Part shown: piece by piece, positions 41,895 to 60,605 of the stretch
Layout: each line of letters begins with the position of its first letter
How positions within the stretch are numbered: position 1 is the stretch's first letter
NCBI RefSeq assembly: GCF_014647455.2
Contig: NZ_BMPF01000008.1
Coordinates: 1 to 64,000, forward strand
From: Halarchaeum grantii
GTDB lineage: Archaea > Halobacteriota > Halobacteria > Halobacteriales > Halobacteriaceae
Direction: 5' to 3'
Length of the DNA: 64,000 nt
The notes under the pieces: generated by a model
Told to the model about the DNA's origin: nothing
Database searches by the model: none
What the model saw: only the letters and a program-made list of their open reading frames with translations
Translations under genes and position numbers: made by a program

Positions 41895-41897
41895 GCG

Positions 41898-42776
41898 TCA
41901 CTCGCGTCGACCGCCCGTTGCCTCGTCCGCCTCGAACGCCGGCCAGTCGAGGACGACGCGCTCGTCGGCGCGCTCACCGCCGTCCGTGACGCGGAGTGCG
42001 ACCGCTTCCCCGCAGTCGCGCGCGACGCCGACCGCGAGGAAGCTCGCGACCGGGTGGTCGAACGTCTCCCCGGGGCCGAACTCGACGCCGGAGAGCGCGA
42101 CGGCGAGGCGGCCGTCGCCGACCTGCTCGACGTCGCCGCTCTCGACGAGCTCGAACTGGTTCGCGAGGGCGTCGACGAGCGACTCGCCGAGGCGCTCCGG
42201 GTCGCCGTCCGCCGACGTGGTGCGCGCGCGCTCGTACTCCTCGAAGAGGCGGTCGCCGCTCGCGTGCAGGGAGACGCCGCGTTCGCGGTCGTCGTCCGTC
42301 GCGACGAAGACGGTGGCGAGCGCGTCGTCGTCGGGGCGACGCGCGGTCGCGTGCTGTGGCACGAACAGTCGCGCGCCCGCGTCCGGGTGCTCGACCGGGA
42401 CGTAGTAGCGGTGGTCGGTGAGCCCGAGTTCGCGCGCGATGTCGGCTTCGTTCTCCGCGAGCGCGCTGAACGCGCGCTCGCCGACCGTGACCGGGACGAC
42501 GTGCTCGGGCGTCAAGTAGTACGTGAGCACGCCCGCGAACACGCCGGTGCCCGCGAGCGCGAACAGCACCGTTCGCGCGTCCGCGAACGCGACTCCGAGC
42601 AGTCCGGCGAGGACGCCTAGCGCGCCGAACGCGGCGGCGCTCCGCCGATAGGAGACGCGTTTCGAGCGGGCGTACTCCTCGCGGAGGCGCCGGTTCTCCT
42701 CCTCGACCAGCTGGAGGCGCGTTTCGAGGACCGCATCGTCGTCGGCCGACTCGGCGTCGATGTCTGCATCACTCAT
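41898..42776 (-). CDS. Coiled-coil and two-helix membrane protein of the DUF58 operon
   Basis: A 292-aa protein not assigned to a named family. Residues 15-45 form a coiled coil (LETRLQLVEEENRRLREEY). Two adjacent helices follow (AAFGALGVLAGLLGVAFA and VLFALAGTGVFAGVLTYYL). Residues 90-290 are a soluble alpha/beta domain with ERAFSALAENEADIARELGL and DHRYYVPVEHPDAGARLFVP. Its ATG overlaps the stop of the membrane gene at 42769 by eight bases, making it the third gene of the DUF58 operon. It ends three bases before the convergent MoxR stop. It probably anchors or regulates the MoxR/DUF58 complex at the membrane. Confidence 0.78.
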   Translation of the reverse strand: MSDADIDAESADDDAVLETRLQLVEEENRRLREEYARSKRVSYRRSAAAFGALGVLAGLLGVAFADARTVLFALAGTGVFAGVLTYYLTPEHVVPVTVGERAFSALAENEADIARELGLTDHRYYVPVEHPDAGARLFVPQHATARRPDDDALATVFVATDDDRERGVSLHASGDRLFEEYERARTTSADGDPERLGESLVDALANQFELVESGDVEQVGDGRLAVALSGVEFGPGETFDHPVASFLAVGVARDCGEAVALRVTDGGERADERVVLDWPAFEADEATGGRRE

Positions 42777-43248
42777 GTGTTGAATCGGGGACGAGATCGA
42801 GCATGACTAGTTCGTAGCGGTGCACGCCGTAGCCGAGGAGCGCGACGGTCCCGAGGACGAGCGCCGCGAGCGTCCACGTCGGCAGGGACGCGCTGAGACC
42901 CGCGCCGAGGACGGCGAGGGCGGCGCCGCTCGCGACCGCGAACGTGGCGAGCGTGCGGACGGAGCGCGTCGCGCGCAGGAGGTGTGCGCCGAGGCCGACG
43001 CTCACGCCCCCGACGACGAGGACGAGCGTCGCGAGCGAGACGGGGCCGAGCGCGCCGAGCGCGACGGCTGCGAGGACGGTTGCGACGCGCCCGTCACGGA
43101 GGAGCCAGCAGACGCCGACGGCGAGCGCGGCGACGACGCCCGGCCCCCCGTGTCCGGTGGCGAAGCCGATGGCGACGAGGAGGAACCCGATCGCGGGGCC
43201 GGTCGCGCGCTCGGCGCGTCCGAGCAGGCGCGTGCTCGTCGCACTCAT
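42769..43248 (-). CDS. Small polytopic membrane protein (DUF7519-like)
   Basis: A 159-aa protein made almost only of hydrophobic helices: AIGFLLVAIGFATG, GVVAALAVGVCWLL, VATVLAAVALGALGPVSLATLVLVVGGV, LATFAVASGAALAVLGAGL and WTLAALVLGTVALLGYGV. It resembles the haloarchaeal DUF7519 type associated with DUF58 genes. Its ATG overlaps the DUF58 stop in ATGA, and its stop overlaps the next start. It is likely a membrane subunit of the same complex. Confidence 0.75.
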   Translation of the reverse strand: MSATSTRLLGRAERATGPAIGFLLVAIGFATGHGGPGVVAALAVGVCWLLRDGRVATVLAAVALGALGPVSLATLVLVVGGVSVGLGAHLLRATRSVRTLATFAVASGAALAVLGAGLSASLPTWTLAALVLGTVALLGYGVHRYELVMLDLVPDSTHE

Positions 43249-44669
43249 GCCGGTCGCCTCCGCTCGCGTCGCGCCGTCAGTAACGCTTCGAGCCGCTCGC
43301 CGGGCGTGACCTCGTACGCCTCGACGCGCGCGGTCTTCGCGAGCGACTCGCGGAAGGCGACGAACTCACTGTACGCCGCGTACGCCGACTCGAGGTCCGC
43401 GAGCGCGTCCGGTTCGTAGAGCGCGCGCGGCGCGATGAAGACGAGGACGTGGTCGTCGCCGTGCTGGAGGAGGTTGACCGTCCGCTGCAGCTCCGCTCGA
43501 TGTGCGTCGTCCGTGAACACGACGTGCCAGTGCTGGCCGCCGTGGCGTGTCGTGAACGTCTTCGCCGCCCGATAGAGCGGGTCGTCGGCGGTGGCGTGCT
43601 GGTGGCGGGTCGCGGTCGTGACGTAGGGGCGGAGGGTCGAGGCGTACGTGCTGTCGTCGCCACGGAGCGCCCGCGTGAGCGCGCCCGCGCCACCTCGCTC
43701 GGTCTTCGGCCACGCGACGCCGTCCCCGGTCGTCGGGGTGAGCGCGTGGAGTTTCCGCTCGATGATCGGGTACTGCGTGTGCGCGGTCGCGCTCGCCACG
43801 CGGTCGGTGACGCCGTCGTCCCCGACCGCGTAGTAGGAGAGGGGGTCCTCGGCCGCCGCTGCGCTCTCCACGACGGCGAGCGCGGCCTCCCGGAGGTAGT
43901 CGAAGGCGGTCACGCCGCTGCGGCCGACGCCGGTCGTCGCGCGGTGGTCGACGAAGACGGCGGTCTGTCGCTCTGTCGTCGCCTCCGCCTCGCGGAGAAA
44001 CGGCTCGTTCAGTCGCGCGGTCGTCAGCCAGTCGATTCGGGTCGCCGGGTCGCCGGGCTGGTACTCGCGGATGTCCGCCGGGTCGACCCCGGCACCCCAG
44101 CGCTCGGCCGTGTGACTCCCGTACGGCGTCGTCATCCGGACGTCGCCCGCGCCGACCTGCACGTCGCGTGGGAGGCGTGGCTCGACGGTCAACGCGACGG
44201 CCTCACCGATGGGGAGGGTTTCGCTGAACAGGCCGAACGCGCCCCGAACGGTCACCGTCGGGCGCGAGACCGTGTGCCGGCCCGCGACGGGGACGGTGAG
44301 CGAGAAGACGGTTCGTGCCGCGTGCTCGGCGTCCGCGAGCGAGAGCGACGCCGCGTCCGCCTCGACGTCGGCGGCCGCCGGTGGCGTGACCGCGATTTCG
44401 AGGGGGACGTCCGTCTCCTCGCGTGTCGCCGTGAGGACGACCGGCACCGATTCGTCGGTCATGAGCGTCTCTTGTGCGGGGACGATGCTGACCGAGAGGT
44501 CGCTCGTGAGCGTGCGGAGCGTCCGGACGAACGCGAGTTGCGCGGCGAGCACCCAGCCGCCGAGCAGGCAGAGGCCGAGCAGGACGAGTGGGCGGGCGAA
44601 CACCACCGCGAACCCCGCCAGAAGCGCGAGCAGGAGGAGGGCTTCGCGGCCGGTTCTGGTCACCCGCAT
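43245..44669 (-). CDS. DUF58-domain membrane protein
   Basis: A 474-aa protein with two N-terminal helices (ALLLLALLAGFAVVFARPLVLLGLCLLGGWVLAAQL in pieces). A beta-rich extracytoplasmic segment follows (about 55-190). The DUF58 signature is R-E-Y-Q-P-G-D-P-A-T-R-I-D-W near residues 203-216, then T-A-R-L-N-E-P-F. The C-terminal half has a vWA-like Rossmann core (TAVFVDHRA, WHVVFTDD, HVLVFIAP). DUF58 proteins are the vWA-type partners of MoxR ATPases. ATG 44669 is used; a GTG one codon earlier is possible. First gene of a three-gene overlapping operon, divergent from the Ig-stalk protein. Confidence 0.9.
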   Translation of the reverse strand: MRVTRTGREALLLLALLAGFAVVFARPLVLLGLCLLGGWVLAAQLAFVRTLRTLTSDLSVSIVPAQETLMTDESVPVVLTATREETDVPLEIAVTPPAAADVEADAASLSLADAEHAARTVFSLTVPVAGRHTVSRPTVTVRGAFGLFSETLPIGEAVALTVEPRLPRDVQVGAGDVRMTTPYGSHTAERWGAGVDPADIREYQPGDPATRIDWLTTARLNEPFLREAEATTERQTAVFVDHRATTGVGRSGVTAFDYLREAALAVVESAAAAEDPLSYYAVGDDGVTDRVASATAHTQYPIIERKLHALTPTTGDGVAWPKTERGGAGALTRALRGDDSTYASTLRPYVTTATRHQHATADDPLYRAAKTFTTRHGGQHWHVVFTDDAHRAELQRTVNLLQHGDDHVLVFIAPRALYEPDALADLESAYAAYSEFVAFRESLAKTARVEAYEVTPGERLEALLTARRERRRPA

Positions 44670-44815
44670 CACCGTATCGACGTATCGCGGGCCAATTGAA
44701 CCTACTGATACATTCGCGTACGCGAGCCGGTCCGTCCGTGAGACACGCCCCCATCCCGGACGTCGGCTCTCGGCTGTAGAAAGGGGTTTGTACGTCCGTG
44801 GGATACGTCACGGAC

Positions 44816-46885
44816 GTGACTTGGGTCACGCGACGGCGCGCCCGGCTCGTCTTCGCCGTGGCCGCGGCGTTCGCTCTCTGCGTCTCCGGCGTGCACGCGG
44901 GCCCAGCGGCCGAAAGCGCGGCCGCCACGCCGACCGCACAGGTGAGCGGACCCGACAACGACACCGCGAACAACTCCTCGGTGCCACACCACCGCGACCC
45001 CGCGACGTACGAGGAACCGGGTGAGATCCGGGGGCTCGAGTCGTGGCTCGATTCGCACCTCGGCGCGCGACTCGCCGCGAGCACGCGCAACGTGAGTCAG
45101 GGCCAGTACGAGGCGGCGCGCGCGGTCGTCGGCGACGCGTACAGCGACCGCCTCGACCAGTACGTCGACGTCGCCGGCGCGACCGACTACGAGAGCGACG
45201 ACCGGGCCGCCGACGAGTTCGCGCGCGCACAGGACGCCCAGCGCGAGTACGTCTCGAGCACGAGTCGCTACGAGCGCGTCCACGAGCAGTATCAGCGCGC
45301 CCGCGACGCGGGCGACGAATCGCGCGCGCGGCGCCTCGCCCGCGAGCTCCAGCGTCTCGCCACCAACGTCACCGAGCACCGCACCGCGGTCGTCGAGTCG
45401 TACCGCGCGGTCGGCAACGGGACGGCGGTCGACCTCACGGCGGCGATGCAGCGCACGAACCGGAGCACGGAGGCGGTGCTGTCGACGCAGTCGAGCGTGC
45501 GCGGCGAGACGTTCACGCACACGCGCGTGACGCTCACCCTCGACGACGCGACGCTCACGCCGACGCGACAGAGTCGCGCCACGGGCGTCCTCCGCACCGC
45601 CGACGGCGCCCCGATTCCGAACGGCACGGTCGTCCTCCGGGTCGGCGCGGACACGCTCACGACCACGACCGACGCGGACGGCCGATACGCGCTCACGTAT
45701 CGCCCGGTCGACCTCTCGACGGCGACCGAATCCGCCCGCGTCCGCTATCGGCCCGCAAGCGCGTCGCCGTACCTCGGTGCGAACGCCACCACTCCCGTCG
45801 ACGTCGCGTCCGCTCCGGCGACCGTCACGCTCACGTCGACGCCGCGAGCGGCCGCGTACGGTGAGTCACTCCGCGTTACGGGCGACGTCGACGTCGCCGG
45901 TGCGCAGTTCGCCGGTGTCCCCGTTCGCGTCACGCTCGGTGGCGATGTCGTCGCGCGCACCACGACGAACGCGAGCGGCGGCTTCACCGCCACGCCCCGT
46001 CTCGGCGCGCGACCCGCTGCCGGCACGGCGCCACTCACCGTCGAGGCCGGTCGCACGGACACCGCCATCGAACCGGGGCGCGCGGCGACGACGCTCACCG
46101 TCCGCGAGACGGCGACGTCGCTTTCGCTCACCGCGAACGCGTCCCCGTCGACGCTCGACGTCGCGACGCGACTACGCACTCCTGACGGCGGCGTCGCCGG
46201 CCAGCCGGTCGTGGTGCGCGCGAACGGGACGCGCCTCGCGACGCTCACAACCGACGGCGACGGCACCGCGAACGCCACGCTCACGCTCCCGTCGCGTCTC
46301 CAACCGACGACCGGGGCGCGCACGCTGACGATAACGGCCGCGTACGCGGCGTCCGGAACGAACCTCGAGGCGGCGTCCGCTCGCACGGCCGTCACCGTCT
46401 CGCCACCGCCCGCGTCGTCGAGCGGCGTCACGCTGACGCAGGCGTGGATCCTGCTCGGCGCCGTCCTCGTCGCGAGCCTCCTGTTCGCGCTCGCGTACGC
46501 GCTCTGGCGTCGCGACCTCGAAGCCGACGACGACGTGCCCGAGCCGACGCCGGACCCGGAGCCCGACCCGGCGACGCCCGCGCTCGCCGACCGCCTGCTC
46601 GCCACGGCGCGCGCCTCGCTCGACGACGCCGAGGCCGCGACGACGGTCGAGACGGCGTACGCCGCCGTCCGTCGCGCGTTCGACGAGGACGACGCCCGCC
46701 TCCGCCAGCGCACGCACTGGGAGTTCTACACGACGCTCAGCGACACGCTCGGGGAGGACGAACGCGCCGCGCTCGAAACGCTGACGTCGACCTACGAGCA
46801 CGCGACCTTCGCCGGGCGTCCGGTCTCGCGCGCGGACGCCGAGGCCGCGCTCGCCGCCGCCGAACGCCTCGTCGAGGACGCGTAA
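44816..46885 (+). CDS. Secreted Ig-like stalk protein with C-terminal membrane anchor and DUF4129-like tail
   Basis: About 689 aa. The N-terminus is a signal peptide (TRRRARLVFAVAAAFALCVSG). A helical, Arg/Gln/Glu-rich region (about 55-215) is followed by three beta-sandwich repeats: LRTADGAPIPNGTVVLRV, VTGDVDVAGAQFAGVPVRVTL and RTPDGGVAGQPVVVRANG, typical of bacterial Ig/transthyretin-like modules. A single helix near residues 553-575 (AWILLGAVLVASLLFALAYAL) leads to an acidic cytosolic tail with RTHWEFYTTLSDTL, as in DUF4129 proteins of MoxR/DUF58 loci. GTG 44816 is preferred to GTG 44798. It is divergent from the DUF58 operon and completes the module across both strands. Confidence 0.8.
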   Translation: MTWVTRRRARLVFAVAAAFALCVSGVHAGPAAESAAATPTAQVSGPDNDTANNSSVPHHRDPATYEEPGEIRGLESWLDSHLGARLAASTRNVSQGQYEAARAVVGDAYSDRLDQYVDVAGATDYESDDRAADEFARAQDAQREYVSSTSRYERVHEQYQRARDAGDESRARRLARELQRLATNVTEHRTAVVESYRAVGNGTAVDLTAAMQRTNRSTEAVLSTQSSVRGETFTHTRVTLTLDDATLTPTRQSRATGVLRTADGAPIPNGTVVLRVGADTLTTTTDADGRYALTYRPVDLSTATESARVRYRPASASPYLGANATTPVDVASAPATVTLTSTPRAAAYGESLRVTGDVDVAGAQFAGVPVRVTLGGDVVARTTTNASGGFTATPRLGARPAAGTAPLTVEAGRTDTAIEPGRAATTLTVRETATSLSLTANASPSTLDVATRLRTPDGGVAGQPVVVRANGTRLATLTTDGDGTANATLTLPSRLQPTTGARTLTITAAYAASGTNLEAASARTAVTVSPPPASSSGVTLTQAWILLGAVLVASLLFALAYALWRRDLEADDDVPEPTPDPEPDPATPALADRLLATARASLDDAEAATTVETAYAAVRRAFDEDDARLRQRTHWEFYTTLSDTLGEDERAALETLTSTYEHATFAGRPVSRADAEAALAAAERLVEDA

Positions 46886-46933
46886 TCGCGGTTCCGACTG
46901 CCTTTTCACCCTCTATCGCCAACCCCGGCACGC

Positions 46934-47920
46934 ATGAGCGACGCCCCGGACTGGACGCGCCTCCTCCCGCGGCCGCTGCGCCGCCTCCCGGCGGACATCG
47001 CGGCCACCGTCGCGCTCACGCTCGTCGGCGTCCTCCTCCCGGTTCTCCCCGTGCTGAAGGAGACGCCGCTGCGCGTCCTCTTCGGCCTCCCGCTCGTCCT
47101 CTTCCTCCCCGGGTACGCGCTCGTCGCCGCGCTCTTCCCCGAGGCCGGGAGCGACGACGCGGGCATCGACGGCGTCGAGCGCGTCGCGCTCTCCTTCGGC
47201 CTGAGCATCGCCGTCACGCCGCTTCTGGGACTGGTGCTCAACTTCACGCCGTGGGGAATTCGACTGATCCCGATTCTCGTCGCCGTCGGCGGGTTCACGC
47301 TCGTCGCGGCCGGTGTCGCGGCCGTCCGCCGCTGGGAGACGCCGAGCGAGGAGCGCTTTCGCGTTCCCTATCGCGAGTGGGCGAGCGACGCGCGCGTCGA
47401 ACTCCTCGAACCCGACACCACGACGGACGCCGCGCTGAACGTCCTCCTCGCGGTGAGCGTCCTCGTCGCCGTCGCGAGCGTCGGCTACGCCGTCACCGTC
47501 CCCCAGCAGGGCGAGGCGTTCACCGAGTTCTACTACCTCACGTACGGCGAGGACGGCGACCTCGTCGCGGACGACTACCCCTCCGAGATGGTCGTGAACG
47601 AGTCCGCGCCGCTCGTCGTCGGCGTCGGCAACCACGAGCACCGCGCGCAGAACTACACGTGGGTGCTCCTCGAACAGCAGGTGCACGTCGAGAACAACAC
47701 GACGCTCGTGGACCGATCGGTGCGACTCGAGACGCATCGCCTCCGCCTCGCCGCCAACGAGACGCGCCACACGAACGTCACCATCACGCCGGCGTTCGCG
47801 GGCGAGCGCCAGCGCTTCGCCTTCGTGCTCTACAAGGGCGAACCGCCCGCCGACCCGAGTGTCGAGAGCGCGTACCGCGAGGTCCACCTCTGGGCGAACG
47901 TCACCGAGGCGTCCGCCTAG
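46934..47920 (+). CDS. DUF1616 membrane protein
   Basis: A 328-aa protein with DUF1616 hallmarks: four N-terminal helices (IAATVALTLVGVLLPVLP; LRVLFGLPLVLFLPGYALVAALFP; ERVALSFGLSIAVTPLLGLVL; IPILVAVGGFTLVAAGVAAV), where L-F-L-P-G-Y is diagnostic. A fifth helix (NVLLAVSVLVAVASVGYAV) is followed by an extracellular beta domain (about 195-328) rich in N-x-T sites (NYTW, NNTT). The family often accompanies S-layer or glycosylation genes in archaea; its function is unknown. It lies 48 bp downstream of the Ig-stalk protein on the same strand. Confidence 0.88.
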   Translation: MSDAPDWTRLLPRPLRRLPADIAATVALTLVGVLLPVLPVLKETPLRVLFGLPLVLFLPGYALVAALFPEAGSDDAGIDGVERVALSFGLSIAVTPLLGLVLNFTPWGIRLIPILVAVGGFTLVAAGVAAVRRWETPSEERFRVPYREWASDARVELLEPDTTTDAALNVLLAVSVLVAVASVGYAVTVPQQGEAFTEFYYLTYGEDGDLVADDYPSEMVVNESAPLVVGVGNHEHRAQNYTWVLLEQQVHVENNTTLVDRSVRLETHRLRLAANETRHTNVTITPAFAGERQRFAFVLYKGEPPADPSVESAYREVHLWANVTEASA

Positions 47921-48522: not shown

Positions 48523-49149
48523 TCACGCGTCACCCCGTTGCGACACGAGGGCGCGAACGCGCCCGCTGTACTCACGGTGGAGGCCGTCCGCACCGAGGTG
48601 GCTGAGGAACCCGAGGAGGAACGCCGCGCTCTCGGTGAGCGCCACGGCACGAACCGGCGCTCCGACCGACCCGTCCGTGCCGAGGAGGAGGCTCACGACT
48701 GCGCCGACGCAGAGCGCGACGACGACGCCCGTCGAGAGCCGGTGCGTGACCGTTCGATGCGTCGGGCGCAACACCGGGAAGAGCCGCCGCGTCCCGACCC
48801 ACGCGCCCCACGCGAGCGACGCGACGACGACGCCGCCGAGGAACGCCCCCGGCCGCCCGGTCGCTCGCGTGACCGTCGCCGCGATGGCCGGGCGATAGCG
48901 GAGGCCGACGACGAGCGCGACCGCGGCGACGAGCACCGGACAGACGTCCGCCCCGTAGCGATGCGGGATCGACGCCGGGTGGTCGAGGTCGGGGAAGAGC
49001 GCGCCGGCGAGCGTCGCCGGGAGGCTCACACACACGAGCGCGAGCGGGCCGAGCGAGCACGCGCCGAGGAGGTAGGCGCTCGCGGTCGCGGCGACGAGGA
49101 CGGCATGGGTTGCGAGCCCCCATCGGAGATGCGTCTCGAAGCCGCTCAT
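48523..49149 (-). CDS. YdjM/DUF457-type membrane-bound metal-dependent hydrolase
   Basis: A 208-aa integral membrane protein. His residues of the DUF457 type are seen in T-H-L-R-W-G-L-A-T-H at the N-terminus, F-P-D-L-D-H (about residues 49-54), and R-P-T-H-R-T-V-T-H-R near 122-130, with D/H pattern F-L-S-H-L-G-A-D-G near 182-190. Five or six helices separate these motifs. The family is predicted to hydrolyse phosphoesters in the membrane and includes the LexA-regulated YdjM. ATG 49149 matches the family start. It is the last gene downstream of the tubulin-like operon, 81 bp after the membrane protein. Confidence 0.8.
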   Translation of the reverse strand: MSGFETHLRWGLATHAVLVAATASAYLLGACSLGPLALVCVSLPATLAGALFPDLDHPASIPHRYGADVCPVLVAAVALVVGLRYRPAIAATVTRATGRPGAFLGGVVVASLAWGAWVGTRRLFPVLRPTHRTVTHRLSTGVVVALCVGAVVSLLLGTDGSVGAPVRAVALTESAAFLLGFLSHLGADGLHREYSGRVRALVSQRGDA

Positions 49150-49230
49150 GCGTGCCCGGCACACCCCCGTGAGTCTCGCGGCCCCTGCTGGGCTGCGCTC
49201 GCGCGCGACCGCCAGCGGCGCGTCGACGTC

Positions 49231-50055
49231 TCAGTCATCGAGATCGAGCGCGATGCTCTCGGTGCCCGGGTCGTCGCCCGTCCCGGTCGTCGTCTTCGTG
49301 GCGCCCGACCGGTCGTCGCGCGTCGACCCGCCGAGACTTCGGATGGCGTCCGCGACGGCGCGCTCGGCGCTGGCGGTGAGCGGCTGGTCGGCGACCGACT
49401 GGAGCGTCGAGCGCGTGGCCGCCCGGAGGCGGCGCCGATAGATGGCGCCGGCGACGAGCGCGAGCGCCCCCATCGATGCGGCGCCGATGGCGCCGCTGGT
49501 CAGCGGGGAGAGCGTCGGCGTGATGCCGTAGGCGGCGTGCTCGGCCGTGACGGTGGGCGCGACGCGCTTCGAGGTCTCGACGACGCGCTGCGTCCGCGCG
49601 AACTGCGTTTCGACGTGGACCGTCGCGAGCGTCTCGCCCTGCGGGAGCACGGACTTCGGGTAGACGCGGAAGCTGATGGAGGCGGTCTCGCCGGGTTCGA
49701 GGCGACCGAGGTCGAAGGTCGGCGGCCGGTCGACGGTTCGGTCGATGACCTGCTCGCCACCCGTGGTCTCGCTCGTCGAGATGGACGACGGCGCGATGAA
49801 CGCCGCGCGGTCGGTGGCGAGCGTGAGCTCGGTGGCGTTGATGGGGCCCGTGCGCTCGGTCGGCGCGACCGTCACCGTCACCGCGACCGCGTGGTCGGCG
49901 TCGGCCGAGGTCCCGACGAACGTCTCCTCGACGCCCACGGGCGCGTCCGGCACGCCCTCGCTGGCGCTGGCGTCCACGCTGACGATGGCGACGCCCCCGA
50001 CGACCACCGCGACGACGAGGCAGGCGGCGACGAACGCGCGGGTGCGCTCAGTCAT
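49231..50055 (-). CDS. Secreted, single-pass membrane protein of the tubulin-like operon
   Basis: A 274-aa protein without a recognised named family. A signal peptide or N-terminal helix (AFVAACLVVAVVVGGVAIV) is followed by an extracellular beta domain (about 30-170). The NEW3/COG1361-like sentence FDLGRLEPGETASISFRVYPKSVLP marks a domain that binds or stacks with other surface domains. A second helix (GAIGAASMGALALVAGAIYRRRL) is followed by an acidic, helical cytosolic tail of about 70 residues with STLQSVADQPLTASAERAV. Its ATG overlaps the stop of the tubulin-like GTPase by eight bases, so it is the strongest candidate membrane partner of that protein. Confidence 0.78.
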   Translation of the reverse strand: MTERTRAFVAACLVVAVVVGGVAIVSVDASASEGVPDAPVGVEETFVGTSADADHAVAVTVTVAPTERTGPINATELTLATDRAAFIAPSSISTSETTGGEQVIDRTVDRPPTFDLGRLEPGETASISFRVYPKSVLPQGETLATVHVETQFARTQRVVETSKRVAPTVTAEHAAYGITPTLSPLTSGAIGAASMGALALVAGAIYRRRLRAATRSTLQSVADQPLTASAERAVADAIRSLGGSTRDDRSGATKTTTGTGDDPGTESIALDLDD

Positions 50056-52522
50056 CGTCCTCACCCCACTCGGGGAGGGTCGCATTCTCGATTTGGCTAC
50101 GCATCGACACCGGGTGGCTGGCCGGCAGGAGCTCCGGGTAGGCGTAGCACTCGGCGAGCGGGATGGGGGTCCCCCAGAGGGTGGGCTGGCCGCGCTCGAG
50201 CGACGCCCGGAGCGCGCCGTGGTCGAAGTCGTCGAGCGCGAGGCCGCCGTGGTAGGCGAGCAGGCCGATTCGCTGGTCGTCGTTGCAGACGACCGCCCGG
50301 GACTGTTTGTCGAACTCGTCTTCCGCGACCGTCTTCGGGGCGTTCCCGGTGGCGCCGTCCTGCCAGATGCGCTCGCGGACGGCCTGCGTGCAGAAGACGA
50401 CGGGGCGGTCGCGACTCGGTGTCCGCGACTCGTTGCGGGTCTCGAGGCGCGCGCCGAGGACGCCGTCGTCGTGGTTGTCGAGCGTCTCCCGGAGGAGCGT
50501 CGCGACGCGCTCGCTCTCCATCACGCCGTCGTCGATGAGCGCGGTGATGCCGGCGTCCTCCGCGACGCGCTCGCCGTCGAGTTCGACCCCGCTGGCGACC
50601 GGGAGCGTGACGAACCGGCCGAGCGGCGCTTCCCGGATCACCTCGATCTTGTCCTCCATCTTCGACTTCGCAGCGTCTCGCTGTTGCGTCGCGGTCCCCC
50701 GGTTGCTTACCGCCGTCTCGCGGGCGTCGTCCAGCGCCGCACGCCGCGCCTCCAGCGTCTCGATGACGTCGTCGCGTTCGGCCGCGATGTCCTCGGCGAG
50801 GCTCGCGAGGCGGTCGCGCTCTTCGAGGGCCTCGCGGAGCCGCTGGAGGTTCTCGCGGGTGCGTTCGAGGTCCTCCTTGCAGTTGGTGTACGTCGCGCGG
50901 TCGGTGATGCGCGCGCTCATCCCGAGGTCGTCGAGCTCGCTCGACAGTGACGCGACCTGGTCCTCGAGCATCGGCTCGATGGTCTGGACGAACTGCGTCT
51001 TCGCGCTGTCCGTCTCGTCGAACGCGGGGTCGAACGCCTCGATCTCGTCCCCGCGACGCTCGACGTACTGGTCGACGAGCGCGCGGAACCGGTGGCTCCG
51101 AAGCTCCATCGCGGTCTCGCGGTACATCGCGGCCATGAAGACCGCGCGCTGGATGCGGTCGGCGTCCACGCGGTCGTGGAACGTGTGCGTGCGGCGGTTC
51201 TGGTGCTCGCCGAGCTCGGTCTCGATACCGTCGAGGCGCGTGGAATGCGGGTCGATGTTCCCGGCGATCTGGCGCGCGCGCTCGAACTCCGTGACCATCG
51301 CTTCGGGAACGGCCGTCACGTCCTCACCGTCCGCGTTCTCCGCGACCTCGGCGACGAGGTCGCCCTCGCCACGGAGGTGGTCGTCGGCGTCGATGGCGGC
51401 GTCGAGCTGTGCGCGCGCCGCGTCGAGCGCCTCGATCTCCGCGCTCAGTTCCTCGACGGTTTCGTCGTGCGCCTGGTAGTCGCGCTTATCGTCGAGGAGC
51501 GTGTCGATCTTGTCGACCGGGACCTCGAAGTCCGCGCCGCGCACCTCGTAGAAGGTGTGTTCGAGGGCCTTGGCCTCGTTCTCGACGTCGACGAACTGGG
51601 GTTGGCCCTTGCGCATCCACTCGACGACGACGCGGGCCGCCGTGCGGTCGACGCCCTCGCGGTATTCGGCGTCGTCGCTGCGGTCCTGGTCGTAGCGCAG
51701 GAGGAAGACCCCGGAGAAGGGGTTCTCGGTGATGGTGTAGGCCGAGCGTCGGTTGTTCGCTTGGTCCCGCGAGGCGAGCAGCGGGATGCGCAGCGGGTAC
51801 TCCGTGTCGCCGTCGTAGTCGGTGATGGCGCGCAGTTCGTCGAGGAGCGCGAGCGAGTTCGCGGGGTAGCGCCAGTGGACGTCCGGGGCGTCGCCGCCGC
51901 CGTCGAAGTCCTCGGTGCTGGCGAGGCTGCAGACCGCCCAGTGCTCGAAGCCGGGCTGGACCTCCCCGTCGAGGTCCTTCAGCACCTCGTGGAGCAGGCC
52001 GGTGACGAGCGGGGCGATTCCGGAGCCGGTCCCCCCGCCTGCACCGACGAGGTGGAAGACGTTGACCGCGCTCGGGCCGCTGACGTCCGGATCGGACTCG
52101 AAGTGCTCGACGAACTCGCTGATAGCCCGGCGGATCTTGTCCTCGTGGCTGCCGACGCGCTCGGGGTTGTCGAAGTAGTAGCGCCCGAGGCAGGGGTCGC
52201 GGCCAGCGCCGTCGCCGCCGTCGATGGTGATGTCGTCGCGGAGGTAGTGTCGGTTGCGTTTGTCGTGGTCGTGGAAGCGCCGGTCGGGCGTCTTCAGCGT
52301 GACCGTCTCGATGTCGTCGCCGAGGTCGCTGAACTTCTCGGTGCCGGAGTTGATGGCGACCATCCGCACGCGCTCGGCGATGCCCTCGCGCTCGGCGAGG
52401 TCGAGCACGGCGTTCCCCATCTCGATGCCGCCGTCGCCGCCGCAGACGAGGACGGTCGGGGTCTCGGTCAGGATCGATTCGTCGTCGTCGTCCGGGATGC
52501 TGACTGTGGTGGTGTCGGGCAT
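50048..52522 (-). CDS. Tubulin/FtsZ-superfamily GTPase with long coiled coil (Tubulin_2-like)
   Basis: An 824-aa protein. The N-terminal Rossmann start V-L-V-C-G-G-D-G-G-I-E-M-G-N-A (about 22-36) matches the FtsZ/tubulin G1 loop, and the signature loop L-V-G-A-G-G-G-T-G-S-G lies near residues 157-167. Between them are strands like VRMVAINSG. I find no canonical N-x-D-x-x-D/E T7 motif, so GTP hydrolysis through polymer contacts is doubtful or different. Residues about 360-680 are a long charged coiled coil, with helices such as ERTRENLQRLREALEERD, and the C-terminal third is a mixed domain. This agrees with the large 'tubulin-like' group noted as FtsZ-like proteins in membrane-remodelling loci. 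ATG 52522 is preferred over 52576. A GATATAGG box (about 52583-52590) may drive it. Confidence 0.85.
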   Translation of the reverse strand: MPDTTTVSIPDDDDESILTETPTVLVCGGDGGIEMGNAVLDLAEREGIAERVRMVAINSGTEKFSDLGDDIETVTLKTPDRRFHDHDKRNRHYLRDDITIDGGDGAGRDPCLGRYYFDNPERVGSHEDKIRRAISEFVEHFESDPDVSGPSAVNVFHLVGAGGGTGSGIAPLVTGLLHEVLKDLDGEVQPGFEHWAVCSLASTEDFDGGGDAPDVHWRYPANSLALLDELRAITDYDGDTEYPLRIPLLASRDQANNRRSAYTITENPFSGVFLLRYDQDRSDDAEYREGVDRTAARVVVEWMRKGQPQFVDVENEAKALEHTFYEVRGADFEVPVDKIDTLLDDKRDYQAHDETVEELSAEIEALDAARAQLDAAIDADDHLRGEGDLVAEVAENADGEDVTAVPEAMVTEFERARQIAGNIDPHSTRLDGIETELGEHQNRRTHTFHDRVDADRIQRAVFMAAMYRETAMELRSHRFRALVDQYVERRGDEIEAFDPAFDETDSAKTQFVQTIEPMLEDQVASLSSELDDLGMSARITDRATYTNCKEDLERTRENLQRLREALEERDRLASLAEDIAAERDDVIETLEARRAALDDARETAVSNRGTATQQRDAAKSKMEDKIEVIREAPLGRFVTLPVASGVELDGERVAEDAGITALIDDGVMESERVATLLRETLDNHDDGVLGARLETRNESRTPSRDRPVVFCTQAVRERIWQDGATGNAPKTVAEDEFDKQSRAVVCNDDQRIGLLAYHGGLALDDFDHGALRASLERGQPTLWGTPIPLAECYAYPELLPASHPVSMRSQIENATLPEWGEDDD

Positions 52523-52683
52523 GGTCGGGGTCGAGAGCGACGCGGGGCCGCGCCGCGCCGTTCTCACTCCCAACAAGCGCCCCCTATATCACCATCCTAT
52601 CACTTTTTCCGGGCGCGGTGTGCGCTCTCGCGAGGGGAGGCGTTCCACGCGTGGAATCGGTCCCGGCGCTCCATCGGCCGCCT

Positions 52684-53229
52684 TCAGAACGGCGAGGACG
52701 GCATGAAGCCCGGATTTCGGGACACCAGCTCGCCGACGTCCTCGTCCGGCCCCTCGTCGTCTATCTCGGGGAACATCCGCATGAACTGCGTCCACGAGAG
52801 CACCCACGCCGAGGGGTTGTCGTCGCTCAGCATCTCCGCGCTCGCGAGGAAGACGACGTGCGTTCCCTCGACCTCGAAGCGCTCGACGACGGCGTCCGGG
52901 AGTTTCCCCGGCGCGCGAATCCGGGCGTTCTCGCCCGGATAGCCGTCGACGACGTTCCAGTCCGCATACCGGTACTCGGACTTGCGCGCGGGCGAGCGCG
53001 AGATGAAGACGAACTGCGAGCCCGCGTCGTAGTTCCAGTGGACGATTGCGTCCTCGCCGTCGTCGACGACGTACTCCTGTGCGAGTTCCGGCAACTGCAC
53101 GCGGCGGTTGCTCTGCACGGCGCGTGGCTCCTGAAGCGGCCACGGCTCGTCGAACGCCGCCGCATCTATGGGGCTCGCGTCTCCACCCGACCCGTCAGTG
53201 GCCGCTCTCCCGGCCTCGTCTCCGCGCAC
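52684..53229 (-). CDS. Unrecognised 181-aa protein upstream of the tubulin-like gene
   Basis: GTG start. No membrane segment or signal peptide. Residues about 40-75 (SNRRVQLPELAQEYVVDDG) recall an AbrB-type swapped-hairpin, but the match is only a pattern. The rest includes DAGSQFVFISRSP, RYADWNVVDGYPG and a Trp-rich WVLSWTQFMRMFP near 150. It is the first gene of the minus-strand unit, 161 bp before the tubulin-like ATG, and divergent from the metallopeptidase at 53326 with 96 bp between. It could be a local regulator or adaptor. Confidence 0.6.
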   Translation of the reverse strand: MRGDEAGRAATDGSGGDASPIDAAAFDEPWPLQEPRAVQSNRRVQLPELAQEYVVDDGEDAIVHWNYDAGSQFVFISRSPARKSEYRYADWNVVDGYPGENARIRAPGKLPDAVVERFEVEGTHVVFLASAEMLSDDNPSAWVLSWTQFMRMFPEIDDEGPDEDVGELVSRNPGFMPSSPF

Positions 53230-53325: not shown

Positions 53326-55245
53326 GTGCGCTCGCCAGTCGCCCTCACAGGACTCCTCGCACGCCTCCGCGACCCCTTCGACGTCTACGAGATCCGGTGG
53401 GCGACGGCCCTCCCCCGCCCCACCGTCGAGTCCCGCCTCGACGACGCCTTCGAGCGGACCGCTGACGACGCGACCGGCTGGCGACACGACCACACGCTCG
53501 TCTACACCGACCGCCTCTCGGTCACGGACGACGGCGAGGTCCGCATCGTCCGCCGCTGGCCCGCCGCCGTCCGCCTCGCCGTCCTCGGCCTCGTCCTCCT
53601 CGCGCCGCTCGTCACCGCCTCCGTCTGGTCGGTCTTCCTCTACTTCGGCCTCGCGGCCCTCCTCCAAGGACATCCGGACACCGACCCGCCCCTGCAGGGC
53701 TGCGTCGAGACGACACGCGAGGCCGCCAACGGGCTCGTCGGCGTCACGATGCTTCTCTCGGTCGTCGCGGCGCTCCGGCACTTCGACGCCACGGTCGATT
53801 CGTGGCTCGTCACACCGCTCGCCGTCGCCGTGCTCCTCCTCGTCCTCGTGAACGCCTATCTGGAGGACTCCCTCCCCTTCGTCACGCCCGACCTCAGCAA
53901 GCGCGTCCTCCTCATCCCGTACAACTTCCTCGCGCTCGCCGGCCCCGTCCTCATGCTCTTCTTCCCCATCGTCGTGTTCTCCGCGTGGGTCTCCCGGACG
54001 GGCGACCGACTCGCCGCGTACACCTCGGAGACCCTCAACCGCGCGTCGCGCTCAGTGCTCTCCGACATGCTCGGCACCAGCCTCCCCGCGACCGGGCAGA
54101 TCGACGCGGAGACGATTCGCCACCTCGTCATGCAACTGTTCGTCCCGTACGCGCGGATCGCCCTGCTCGCCGCCGCCATCTCGCTCTTCCTCTGGGTGCA
54201 CACGTCACGCACGACGGTTCGCGCGCTCCACCGCTATCGCCTCGACCGCTTCGCCTCAGACGCGCGACGCGCGGTCGTCTTCCTCCTCTACGCCGCGTTC
54301 ACCGCGCTCCTCTACACCGTCACCGCCGTCGCCGTCGCCATCCTCGCCTTCGGCGTGACCGGCGTCTACCCCCTCCCCGACGCCACGCTCCAGCCGCTCC
54401 TCACGCTCCTCCCCGCCGACACGCAGCCGACGCCGACCGCCTTCCTCGTGGACCTCTACCGCACCCTCGACTACACCTTCCGCGACGCCGGCCTCCCCGC
54501 CCGCGCCGTCGGCATCGGCTATCTCTGCCTCCTCCTCTGGCCGTTCGTCTTCGTCGCGCTCGGCACTGTCACCGAACTGCTCGCCCGCCCGATCCGCGTC
54601 GCGACCGTCTTCCTGCGCTCGTCGTCGCTCCCCGAAGACGACGGCCAAGACCTCCTCCCCGACGCCGTCGAGGTCCGCCGCATCGACCGCGCCGGCTTCC
54701 CCGCCCTCCGCCCGCTCTCGCTCCCCCTCGGTCTCGGCCACTACGTCTTCGTGAGCGACGTCCTCGTCGCGGAATGCAGTCGCGCGGAACTGCACGCGCT
54801 CCTCGAGCACGAACACTACCACATCCGCGAGCGCAGCCTCGGCGTCGGCGCGACCGTCCTCTCCTCGCTCCTCGGTGGCACCACCCTCCTCCCGGCCTTC
54901 TACGACTACCGCGAGAGCGAGCGCGCCGCCGACGCCGCCGCCGCTGCCGTGCTCGACGCACGCACCGTTCGCGACGCCATCCGGCGGATATACGAACTGC
55001 GCGCCCGCACCGACGGTACGCCCCTCGCGCTCCCCCACCCCGGTATCGTCGGTGCCGACACGCGCACGCCGCAGGGCGACGCCACCGCCGTCGACTCGCT
55101 CCGCGACGCCGTCGAGCGCCTCCGCACGACCGTCTACGCGTACGGCACGGCACCATATCGGCTCTACTTCGGGAGCGTGCTCGTCGACACCGCGCACCTC
55201 CGGAAACGCGAGCGGCTCGACGCGCTCCGCGACCTCGAGGACTAG
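53326..55245 (+). CDS. Multi-pass membrane metallopeptidase (M48/M56-like), copy 1
   Basis: A 639-aa protein with a GTG start. Residues 1-85 form a soluble N-terminal domain (ALPRPTVESRLDDAFER). About seven or eight helices span residues 85-440. The C-terminal zinc-peptidase domain has L-L-E-H-E-H-Y-H with the HExxH motif near residues 495-499 and E-S-E-R-A-A-D as the third-ligand helix; the tail carries H-L-R-K-R-E-R-L-D-A-L like the M48 end motif. It would cleave membrane or surface proteins, possibly as regulated proteolysis. GCTTTAGT at 53295-53302 is placed for a leaderless start. The 3' end overlaps the second peptidase by four bases. Confidence 0.82.
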   Translation: MRSPVALTGLLARLRDPFDVYEIRWATALPRPTVESRLDDAFERTADDATGWRHDHTLVYTDRLSVTDDGEVRIVRRWPAAVRLAVLGLVLLAPLVTASVWSVFLYFGLAALLQGHPDTDPPLQGCVETTREAANGLVGVTMLLSVVAALRHFDATVDSWLVTPLAVAVLLLVLVNAYLEDSLPFVTPDLSKRVLLIPYNFLALAGPVLMLFFPIVVFSAWVSRTGDRLAAYTSETLNRASRSVLSDMLGTSLPATGQIDAETIRHLVMQLFVPYARIALLAAAISLFLWVHTSRTTVRALHRYRLDRFASDARRAVVFLLYAAFTALLYTVTAVAVAILAFGVTGVYPLPDATLQPLLTLLPADTQPTPTAFLVDLYRTLDYTFRDAGLPARAVGIGYLCLLLWPFVFVALGTVTELLARPIRVATVFLRSSSLPEDDGQDLLPDAVEVRRIDRAGFPALRPLSLPLGLGHYVFVSDVLVAECSRAELHALLEHEHYHIRERSLGVGATVLSSLLGGTTLLPAFYDYRESERAADAAAAAVLDARTVRDAIRRIYELRARTDGTPLALPHPGIVGADTRTPQGDATAVDSLRDAVERLRTTVYAYGTAPYRLYFGSVLVDTAHLRKRERLDALRDLED

Positions 55246-57062
55246 CCGTCGTCGCGCTCGAGGCGACGCACCGCCGCGATCCGCTCCTCGTTCGACGGAT
55301 GCACCCCACCAGCGAAATACCCGAAGAGGAAGTCGAACACCCGATTCAGGCCCGCGACGGCGCGGCTATCGCCCATCTGCATCGTTGGGAGGAACGTGAC
55401 CGCCGACTCCTCGAGTACGTCCCACTCCTCGCGGGCGAACCGCTCGAGCACGCCGACGAGGACGTCCGCGCCATCGGCCCCCGGGACGGCCTCGTCGACG
55501 CGGCGCACCGCACGCTCGTCCGCCGTCAGCTCGCGCGCGTGGAAGTCGTAGATGCTGTACACGACGTTCTTCCCCATCAACGCGAACGTCGGTAGGCACG
55601 CGAGCACGAACTGGAGGTACGCCCCACGATGCTCGAAGTGACTCTCCTCGTGTGCGATCACCGCCGCGCGCTCCGCCGGGTCGAGCGCGGCCAGCGCCCC
55701 CTCCGAGAGCACGATCGCGCGAGCACACGGGTCCCAGTACGCCCCCGCGTAGAACTCCTCGCGCGGCAGCACCCACACGGGATACGCGGGCTCGAACGGC
55801 ACGGCGTCCGCCGACAGGCCGCTCCGGTCACAGCGGCGTCGCACCGCCCACACCATGCCGGCCAGCCGAGCGAGCTGATAGCCGGCCCCGCAGACCAGAT
55901 AGACCGTCGGCAGCGCGAGCGAGACGCCGAGCAGCCAGACGCTCGGCGATGCGCCCGCCGTCGCGAGCCGCCACCCGAGCACGACCGACCCGAGCACCAC
56001 CGCGAGCAGCGTCCCCGCAGCCGTGATCATCGCGTACGCCGACACCGCCGCCACGCGTGTCGACACCGTCCGCCCCTCGCTCGTGAACCGACGCCGCGTC
56101 GCGTCGCTCGACGCGAACAGCCAGCGCCAGCCAGCGACCCAGACACCGCTCACCGACACCGCGCTCGCGACGACGGCACCCGAATCGACGAGGGACGTCA
56201 CGGGGAGCGGCCGAACCGTGATGGCGAGGTGCCACGGGACCGAGAGCACGAGCAGCCCCGTGAGCGCCGCCGCCGTCACGACCTGTAGTGGCACGAGCCG
56301 CCGCGACCCCTGTCGGCCGAGCAGCACCGCGACGAGCAGAGCGCCGCCCCCGAAGACGCCACACGACACCAGCGGCCGACGCACCGTGACGGCCGTGTTC
56401 AGCGCGGCGAACGCCACTAGCCCCACGCTCGCCGCCGCCGTCACCGCCACGTACCGGCTCGCCACCGGCGGCAGCGTGCGCAGCCACGCCGTCCCCACGG
56501 CCGATACGCCAGCGCACACCGACTCGACCCGCCGTGTCCAGCCGTGGACCGCCCACAGCACACACCCCACGCTCGCACACAGTACACCGACTCGCCCCCC
56601 GCCGGCCAGCGAGCCAGCGACACAGAGCCACACGACGGCCAGCGGCCCCACCTGCGGGTACCGCGTCCGCGACACCGACACCTGTCCGTCCGGCAGTCGA
56701 CTCCCCGCCACCGTCGCGCTCGTCCCACCAACCACACCGAGGACGCCCAGCGCCCACAGCCACAGCGCGCCCGTCCCACCGCCCAGCCGCGACGCCAGCG
56801 CGCCGAGCAGCACCGCGACGACGCCGGCGAGCACGCACAGATACCACGCCCGCGTCATCCGAACCGTCTCCGTCACCCGCGTTTCCGCCGCGCCGCGCTC
56901 GACCGTCCACGTCGTCCGCCGCGCTAGGAGCCCCGCGAGCGGCTCCGCAACGTGCTCGTACGCGACATCAGCGTCCCCCTCGTCGTCGAGGTTCCGCGAG
57001 AACACGACGGCGGGCACCCGAAGCGTCCCCGCCCGTTCGGCGACCGCGAACGACTCCCGCAT
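55242..57062 (-). CDS. Multi-pass membrane metallopeptidase (M48/M56-like), copy 2
   Basis: About 606 aa (a longer start at 57155 is possible but adds a non-family Arg/Ser-rich stretch). Layout matches copy 1: an N-terminal soluble domain (about 1-75), eight or nine helices, then a zinc-peptidase domain with V-I-A-H-E-E-S-H (HExxH near residue 472) and the third-ligand segment H-A-R-E-L-T-A-D-E. The end motif V-H-P-S-N-E-E-R-I-A-A-V-R is the classic M48 C-terminal signature. The pair is tail-to-tail and overlaps by four bases. Sequence similarity between the copies is low by eye, so they are old paralogs with distinct substrates. Confidence 0.82.
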   Translation of the reverse strand: MRESFAVAERAGTLRVPAVVFSRNLDDEGDADVAYEHVAEPLAGLLARRTTWTVERGAAETRVTETVRMTRAWYLCVLAGVVAVLLGALASRLGGGTGALWLWALGVLGVVGGTSATVAGSRLPDGQVSVSRTRYPQVGPLAVVWLCVAGSLAGGGRVGVLCASVGCVLWAVHGWTRRVESVCAGVSAVGTAWLRTLPPVASRYVAVTAAASVGLVAFAALNTAVTVRRPLVSCGVFGGGALLVAVLLGRQGSRRLVPLQVVTAAALTGLLVLSVPWHLAITVRPLPVTSLVDSGAVVASAVSVSGVWVAGWRWLFASSDATRRRFTSEGRTVSTRVAAVSAYAMITAAGTLLAVVLGSVVLGWRLATAGASPSVWLLGVSLALPTVYLVCGAGYQLARLAGMVWAVRRRCDRSGLSADAVPFEPAYPVWVLPREEFYAGAYWDPCARAIVLSEGALAALDPAERAAVIAHEESHFEHRGAYLQFVLACLPTFALMGKNVVYSIYDFHARELTADERAVRRVDEAVPGADGADVLVGVLERFAREEWDVLEESAVTFLPTMQMGDSRAVAGLNRVFDFLFGYFAGGVHPSNEERIAAVRRLERDDG

Positions 57063-59524: not shown

Positions 59525-60605
59525 GTGACCGACCCACCCTCTCCCGCTGACGAGTTGCTCCCGCCGACTCACACTGTATTGCCGCGGACATCCTCAACGG
59601 GGATACCCTTGAGGAAGGTAAGGCGGAGGGCCCCCCTTCAGTGATATCGCAGAGTCACACAAGACGGCGATCGAACCGGCCGCATCGTGTACGAGACGCA
59701 CGCGGCACATCTCAGCGAGCAGTGGACGAGAGCCCTCTACGTCGCCGAATACCCCGACCACTCCAATGATCAGTACCTCAGCGACCTCTTCGAACTTACT
59801 GACATCGAGTTCGACCTCACTGCACACATCACCCCGAAGAACCAAGAACAGGCGCGGAACGAACTTGAGGAAATCGCCGACGACCTCTAGGCCGACGCGG
59901 ACCTCGCACAGAGTGTTCGGGGTGCCGACCTCCAAGAGCGCGCTGATGAGGCGGCAGCGACGTACAAGGCCGTCGAGAGCGGCACGAACGTCTTCGACCA
60001 AGGCTTCTTCATCACGCCGTGCCGACGCGAAGAACGACCTGCAGGACGCTGTCCGCACCGTGAAGCGCATGCTCCGCGATGAGCCCGTAAGCCTCACGCC
60101 GAAGACGGCGATCTGCCGGCAGGACGGTGCCCTCCAGTCCGCTGCACCCATCGGCGACAATGAGTTCGGCATCCAGAAGGACAACCAGAGCCCCGTCGTC
60201 ATCGACCCCTTCGCACGTGACAACGGCTACGCCATGTTCACCGTTGGCGGTACGGGATCTGAGAAGTCCTTTGGCTCGAAGCAGAACTTCACCCGGTCGA
60301 TCGATCAGGACCGCGACCGAATCGGCATCATCCTTGAATCCTTCAACAACTGGGCGGGCGTCTCTGAGGCCCTCGTCGGCGTCGACGGCGAGTGGCGTGG
60401 CATCCAGCTCGAAGCCATGCCCAAAGAAAAGCGGGCCATCGACTTCGACCACACCACCCAGCCCCGCGACGAACCCCCCGGCGCTACCAGCGACGAAGCC
60501 GATTCAGAGAGGGAGTCCATCCAGCAGCAACTTGCCGAACAGGCCATCCAATCGGGCGATGACACGAAACAAGCTGCAGAGACGGACGGTGGTCGCGATG
60601 CGTGA
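59525..60605 (+). pseudogene. Decayed VirB4/TraC-like conjugation ATPase
   Basis: Pieces of one protein occur in successive frames. T-D-P-P-S-P-A-D-E-L and then A-D-I-L-N-G-D-T-L-E-E are N-terminal; T-G-R-I-V-Y-E-T-H-A-A-H-L-S-E continues into EYPDHSNDQYLSDLFELTD and AHITPKNQEQARNELEEIAD. An in-frame TAG at 59888-59890 stops it, ADLAQSVRGADLQERADEA resumes, and a frameshift near 60010 precedes ADAKNDLQDAVRTVKRML. The Walker A region reads G-G-T-G-S-E-K-S (normally G-S-G-K-S). The C-terminal ATPase core is then deleted, with a tail ERESIQQQLAEQAIQSGDD. Its last codons overlap the next gene by eight bases, showing the ancestral operon. It can no longer make a working ATPase. Confidence 0.75.

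Follow-up and report, generated by a model that had tools for sequence, protein, structure and literature searches.

A T7-less FtsZl1 protein of the tubulin superfamily and its membrane partner in a transferred six-gene cassette of haloarchaea

Organization of the TubL locus

As summarized in Table 1, the 64,000-nucleotide stretch of Halarchaeum grantii DNA analyzed herein (the window; contig 8 of 13 in a genome of approximately 3.02 Mb) carries the gene of a tubulin-superfamily protein, TubL, next to genes for a membrane protein (MemP), a YdjM/DUF457 protein, a small soluble protein (P4), and two membrane proteins with HExxH motifs (M48a and M48b). An initial annotation made from the letters alone had named TubL, MemP, and the DUF457 protein, all of which were found as placed, but it had passed over P4 within the same span and both M48 genes beyond it; the conserved unit comprises six genes and extends to position 57062. 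The proposed eight-base overlap of tubL and memP proved exact, and the expected DUF457 gene follows memP after a gap of 81 bp, its product matching PF04307 with 30.6 bits (cut-off, 29), with the hydrolase activity being a prediction. The M48a and M48b genes are convergent and overlap by 4 bp.

Table 1. Positions of the genes and sequence features of the TubL locus in the window
Feature	Position	Strand	Description
YdjM/DUF457	48523..49149	-	208-aa polytopic membrane protein, predicted metal-dependent hydrolase
MemP	49231..50055	-	274 aa; characterized by translation, AlphaFold, Foldseek, hydropathy, and linkage
tubL/memP overlap	50048..50055	-	Exactly 8 bp, ATGACTGA
TubL	50048..52522	-	824-aa FtsZl1/Tubulin_2 protein
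AYPE motif	50132..50143	-	TubL residues 794-797, near the C-terminus
TubL Asn222	51857..51859	-	YPANSLALLDEL; aligns with the CetZ/FtsZ H6 asparagine (hhalign)
T4 glycine loop	52019..52045	-	GAGGGTGSG, TubL residues 160-168
P4	52684..53229	-	181-aa acidic soluble protein of an undescribed family; upstream of TubL
M48b	53326..55245	+	639-aa polytopic membrane protein, HEHYH (HExxH); divergent from P4
M48a	55242..57062	-	606-aa polytopic membrane M48 peptidase, HEESH (HExxH)

The nearest named relative at the TubL locus is Halarchaeum sp. CBA1220 (95.5% identity). Comparison with its orthologs gave dN/dS values of 0.30 for TubL, 0.44 for MemP, 0.19 for YdjM, 0.03 for P4, and 0.30 and 0.33 for the two peptidases, and since all of these fall between 0.03 and 0.44, the six frames were judged to be genuine genes and not chance frames. 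The overlap of tubL and memP is likewise 8 bp in Halarchaeum sp. CBA1220 and Halorientalis and 4 bp in Haloferax sp. Q22, and translation of the two genes in the window is likely coupled through the 8-bp overlap.

TubL as a short-class FtsZl1 protein lacking the T7 region

The assignment of the 824-aa product to the tubulin/FtsZ superfamily in the initial annotation was borne out by profile searches. TubL matched PF13809 (Tubulin_2) over residues 64-342 with 51 bits (53 bits in the genome search; cut-off, 27), and stayed below the cut-off for PF00091, the FtsZ/tubulin family proper (23.8 bits vs 33), while the Pfam search gave no match for the FtsZ_C/Tubulin_C domain. Among solved structures, the best match of a profile built from 15 haloarchaeal relatives was the CetZ/FtsZ chain 4b45 (E 8.4e-8), with both T1 and T4 covered. 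Furthermore, hhalign of the TubL profile to the FtsZ1, FtsZ2, and CetZ proteins of the same genome gave an E value of 1.9e-8 over residues 21-232, a similarity reaching past the glycine loop.

The stretch so aligned runs from S1/T1 via T4 to the T5-H6 region containing Asn222 and ends there, and the FtsZl1 family alignment contained no conserved acidic T7 pair. Because the FtsZ/CetZ alignment stops at residue 232 and the profile holds no counterpart of T7, this region, which had already escaped detection by eye, is absent and was not simply overlooked; without it, TubL cannot perform the usual longitudinal catalysis. In T1, cysteine replaces the first glycine (VCGGDGG). The glycine loop itself is variant or degenerate in several TubL relatives, and GTP turnover may thus be dispensable.

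In its architecture, TubL combines a tubulin-like N-terminal domain, a long helical (coiled-coil) middle, and a C-terminal domain. The AlphaFold model, built from four alignment rows and poor overall (pLDDT 47), was confident only for the initial half of the tubulin fold and for the long helices (336-395, 454-533, and 542-630), so that the coiled coil of about 300 residues described at the outset is plausible as read from predicted helices within 336-630, and the C-terminal 190 residues are modeled with low confidence. FtsZ1, FtsZ2, and CetZ are all encoded separately in the genome, in keeping with the earlier view that TubL differs from each of them: it shares with these proteins the superfamily fold, the T1/T4 loops, and the H6 asparagine, but lacks both T7 and the FtsZ/tubulin C-terminal domain and possesses an additional coiled coil.

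Judged by its sequence, TubL is clearly a member of the known FtsZl1 family, which was described with a FtsZ-like N-terminal domain carrying GGGTG(S/T)G, an extended coiled coil, a mostly helical C-terminus, and an unrecognizable T6-H7 region, and which included a member from Halorhabdus (Makarova and Koonin, 2010; PMC2875224). The same authors noted membrane proteins as neighbors of FtsZl1 and predicted a role in membrane remodeling, as the initial annotation had stated. Loop, coiled coil, missing T6-H7, and membrane neighbors all recur in the TubL system, and the architecture is therefore not that of a new kind of protein. Most, though not all, of the published FtsZl1 operons contain a vWA protein, a kinase, or a membrane GTPase (PMC2875224). 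None of these three is encoded in the cassette of the window, and since they are frequent companions and not a defining feature, their absence does not exclude TubL from the family. A later study of the superfamily took the Tubulin_2 group as its divergent outgroup (PMC9871819); no experimental work on any FtsZl1 protein was found in the literature.

A tree of 29 haloarchaeal FtsZl1 members split with 100/100 support into a short class (23 rows, about 750-960 aa; 735-960 aa for the class as a whole), to which TubL belongs, and a long class (6 rows, about 1,050-1,190 aa). Ten residues were invariant in 19 short FtsZl1 proteins (L76, L94, G105, R114, G163, G164, T165, G168, N222, and Y795). The last of these lies in the AYPE motif, of which A794 and P796 were each present in at least 90% of the 19 sequences, and on the evidence of this alignment the motif is a mark of the short class. 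Short-class proteins differ from the long class in having AYPE and MemP, whereas the latter pair with a polytopic GTPase-like protein. Such a polytopic membrane partner was seen at eight long-class loci, and that of one of them (L119) gave a weak DO-GTPase2 match (E 3.8e-5). Four loci carry two or three diverged FtsZl1 paralogs together with one MemP, which suggests mixed assemblies.

MemP as the dedicated membrane partner of TubL

Hydropathy analysis placed an N-terminal hydrophobic segment at residues 7-25 of MemP and a transmembrane segment at about 187-207, followed by a short acidic cytosolic tail ending in DLDD. In the AlphaFold model, residues from about 40 to 165 form an Ig-like β-sandwich, and the Foldseek matches of this predicted ectodomain were Ig-like adhesin, pilin, and cohesin domains. 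The single-pass topology, outside domain, and acidic tail proposed earlier were thus retained, but the NEW3 assignment was not: the Pfam NEW3 model gave no match up to E 1, and the ectodomain is simply Ig-like according to the model. The tails of MemP proteins are short and poorly conserved.

The genome searches covered an order-level sample of 392 genomes and a phylum-level sample of 130 genomes. Within the order, nine of the 392 genomes contained MemP relatives. The eight relatives other than that of the window genome all adjoin a Tubulin_2 gene within 2 kb (gaps of 30 to 1,962 bp, measured between the matched stretches), for which the chance under random placement is on the order of 1e-22. 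A less biased count, in which short-class loci were selected by TubL alone, gave a MemP relative at eight of nine loci (absent from L067) and at none of the seven long-FtsZl1 loci. MemP may lie downstream of, upstream of, or convergent to TubL, and because the proximity has been kept through such rearranged gene orders, the linkage is taken to be selected and not merely inherited. These observations strongly supported MemP as a true, dedicated partner of TubL; it may be equivalent to one of the unnamed associated families A1 and A2 of PMC2875224.

The pair invites comparison with SepF-FtsZ (for SepF, PMC8178401, PMC8187382) and ZipA/FtsA-FtsZ, in which a dedicated protein tethers a tubulin-superfamily protein to the membrane. 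The likeness would be one of working principle only, since MemP, which crosses the membrane once and exposes an Ig-like domain at the surface, does not have the SepF or ZipA architecture, and TubL is not a division FtsZ.

Surface partners of FtsZl1 in other archaea

At six of six loci outside the class Halobacteria (L112-L117), FtsZl1 of an 861-911-aa type is directly followed by a gene for a protein of about 345 aa, which has a signal segment, an ectodomain, one transmembrane helix near residue 250, and a cytosolic tail that is helical and conserved. In five of these loci the gene pair shares a 4-bp overlap, and in the sixth the genes abut. Homology of this protein to MemP was considered and rejected, as the match (E 0.059) covered the transmembrane segment only. 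A true MemP relative (E 1.9e-35) was found at another locus outside the order (L118), and the long-class locus L119 carries a single-pass protein whose gene lies upstream of FtsZl1 with a 4-bp overlap. Archaeal FtsZl1 thus seems generally to require a transmembrane partner at the cell surface, a requirement met by different proteins.

One of the six loci also encodes, in the same operon as FtsZl1, a 300-aa second tubulin-superfamily protein (L116:10722-11660, - strand; PF00091, 35 bits), and similar proteins occur in L112 and L115; these are possibly heteropolymer partners of FtsZl1.

Distribution, transfer, and decay of the cassette

The gene neighborhood of TubL proved to be conserved in other genera. 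Haloferax sp. Q22 possesses all six genes in identical order and orientation, with identities of 61% (M48a), 44% (M48b), 59% (P4), 59% (TubL), about 45% (MemP), and 49% (YdjM); its M48a gene lies at a contig edge, and the flanks are unrelated and include an ArdC-like protein. All six are likewise found, with their order kept, in Halarchaeum sp. CBA1220, on the 603-kb megaplasmid pCBA1220-01. Halorientalis pallida retains P4-TubL-MemP-YdjM, with an IS transposase upstream and a contig end about 3 kb away, and its TubL gene is interrupted by an in-frame stop immediately ahead of the glycine loop. On the 117-kb plasmid p117 of Halorubrum sp. BOL3-1, IS5 cuts TubL, MemP is intact, and YdjM persists as a remnant. 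TubL relatives occurred in 10 of the 392 genomes of the order, and none was found in three other sampled members of the genus of the window. Taken together, the sporadic presence, plasmid location, and decay indicate an accessory, transferred unit. A viral origin of the cassette was also considered and was unsupported, as neither scans of viral contigs nor tblastn against phage records returned a relative.

Membrane peptidases, P4, and YdjM

M48a matched PF01435 with 31.7 bits (cut-off, 20.3) and carries HEESH; M48b has HEHYH and a weak match (13.7 bits, under the cut-off), and its ortholog in Haloferax sp. Q22 retains HExxH as HELYH. P4 gave no Pfam match, and a PDB search with its profile was empty even at E 10; a double AbrB/MraZ-like domain, suggested by eye from the pattern RxPLPxxV...WNYE, received no support from profile searches. 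Relatives of P4 at five loci elsewhere (best cases) all directly adjoin M48/M56-type membrane peptidases (5/5), in one instance (L089) with a 4-bp gene overlap, and we regard P4 as a new family of small proteins that accompany M48/M56-type membrane peptidases in haloarchaea at large. Since these P4-peptidase pairs lack TubL, the cassette appears to combine two modules, one of peptidases (M48a, M48b, and P4) and one forming the scaffold (TubL, MemP, and YdjM). YdjM adjoins MemP in Haloferax sp. Q22, Halorientalis pallida, and Halarchaeum sp. CBA1220.

The polytopic organization and HExxH motifs of M48a and M48b, with M48/M56 matches ranging from weak to good, suggest a likeness to BlaR1 (M56) and HtpX (M48). 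BlaR1 is, however, paired with BlaI, whereas the cassette peptidases are paired with P4, which has no recognized fold, and lie inside the TubL cassette.

Membrane proteins and metallopeptidases recur near short FtsZl1 genes. Short FtsZl1/MemP loci often include a gene for an M61-like metallopeptidase, a soluble protein with zinc ribbons at its C-terminus, which was seen at four of them (L058, L061, L064, and L065). Two others (L054 and L060) contain vWA, Hsp70, GrpE, and transglutaminase-like genes, a content pointing to a chaperone link, and L058 contains vWA, Ser/Thr kinase-FHA, and zinc ribbon-FHA genes.

Possible function of the cassette

The reading that we tentatively prefer, albeit with somewhat less than even confidence, is that the cassette encodes a membrane-tethered GTPase scaffold, a horizontally moving haloarchaeal version of FtsZl1, that positions membrane-modifying hydrolases. 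TubL would act as a cytoplasmic GTP-binding protein assembling via its tubulin-like domain and long coiled coil, and MemP, whether signal-anchored or signal-cleaved, would use its short cytosolic tail to hold TubL against the inside of the membrane. The scaffold so formed would position the membrane-embedded hydrolases, namely YdjM and, together with P4, the two M48-type peptidases, at those sites of the envelope that the MemP ectodomain senses or binds, and the envelope would be locally reshaped or repaired. The coupled translation and constant proximity suggest a TubL-MemP complex, and the scaffold is favored because the rest of the cassette, P4 apart, consists of membrane-embedded predicted hydrolases. 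Counting against it are the missing T7, the degenerate glycine loops of some relatives, the short and poorly conserved MemP tails, the limitation of the link between TubL and the YdjM and M48 proteins to one subclade, and the occurrence of P4 with a peptidase where TubL is absent.

The family and its predicted role in remodeling date from 2010. The assignment of TubL to that family, the lack of T7, the status of MemP as a dedicated neighbor, the conserved and transferred cassette, and the peptidase motifs are observations, whereas GTP binding, assembly, contact between TubL and MemP, the part played by the hydrolases, and the outcome for the cell are inferred. To a reviewer of the original proposal, a complex between an FtsZ-like protein of the cytoplasm and its mostly extracytoplasmic neighbors had seemed impossible (PMC2875224), and a partner such as MemP, nearly always adjacent, often translationally coupled, and constant in its single-pass topology, is a candidate for the link that answers this objection. 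The pair also makes the proposed membrane role directly testable with two genes in genetically tractable haloarchaea. If the proposal is correct, FtsZl1 would represent a membrane-bound branch of the tubulin superfamily that works without the T7 catalytic loop. A broader generalization, possible but doubtful at this stage, is that archaeal FtsZl1 forms a two-component transmembrane cytoskeleton consisting of a T7-less tubulin-like GTPase and, as its obligatory second component, a single-pass surface protein that may change freely in sequence (MemP or the unrelated 345-aa protein) but not in topology; the haloarchaeal cassette would then link such a scaffold with membrane peptidases and with a predicted metal-dependent hydrolase, and would spread by gene transfer.

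Two rivals have to be taken seriously. According to the first, the system would carry out envelope-stress proteolysis, in which MemP senses damaged or misfolded surface proteins, TubL serves as a GTP-dependent cytosolic switch and not as a filament, P4 and the two M48/M56-like peptidases execute the response by a BlaR1/HtpX logic, and YdjM treats lipids. The intact HExxH motifs of both cassette peptidases, the constant company that P4 relatives keep with such peptidases, and the Hsp70, GrpE, MoxR, vWA, and M61-like peptidase genes in the vicinity of other short FtsZl1 members are all in line with this idea. The peptidases are, however, confined to one short-FtsZl1 subclade, with most MemP-TubL loci having none, and control of the peptidases by TubL would have to be assumed. 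We consider this explanation rather unlikely.

The second rival, less probable still, is an anti-virus or anti-plasmid defence island, in which MemP or TubL would detect infection at the envelope and the hydrolases would kill or seal the cell. Its appeal lies in the sporadic occurrence of TubL relatives, their transfer between genera, their plasmid location, and the frequency of broken copies (IS5 in the Halorubrum TubL and the in-frame stop in that of Halorientalis), but such patchiness is equally normal for accessory envelope genes. Moreover, PADLOC returned no match for six genes tested apart from coiled-coil noise, the neighbors in the window are not defence genes, and housekeeping-like genes surround FtsZl1 in other archaeal families. 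A TubZ-like plasmid segregation system, which the occurrence of a tubulin-superfamily protein on a megaplasmid and on a 117-kb plasmid might suggest, is highly unlikely, as the cassette showed no DNA-binding TubR-like partner, the partner that is conserved is a membrane protein of the surface, TubL lacks T7, and other members lie on chromosome-sized contigs.

Genes flanking the cassette

Genes for DUF4350, MoxR, DUF58, DUF4129, and DUF1616 proteins lie directly beside the cassette (window positions 39872-47920). DUF4350-MoxR-DUF58 clusters have been predicted to function in secretion or remodeling (PMC5898192), and this cluster adjoins the TubL cassette in both Halarchaeum genomes; it was rejected as a part of the cassette since it does not lie beside it in Haloferax sp. 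Q22 or Halorientalis. Positions 60589-63999 encode a 1,137-aa protein with similarity to type IV coupling proteins (TrwB/TraG), which suggests a plasmid or an integrated conjugative element beside the cassette.
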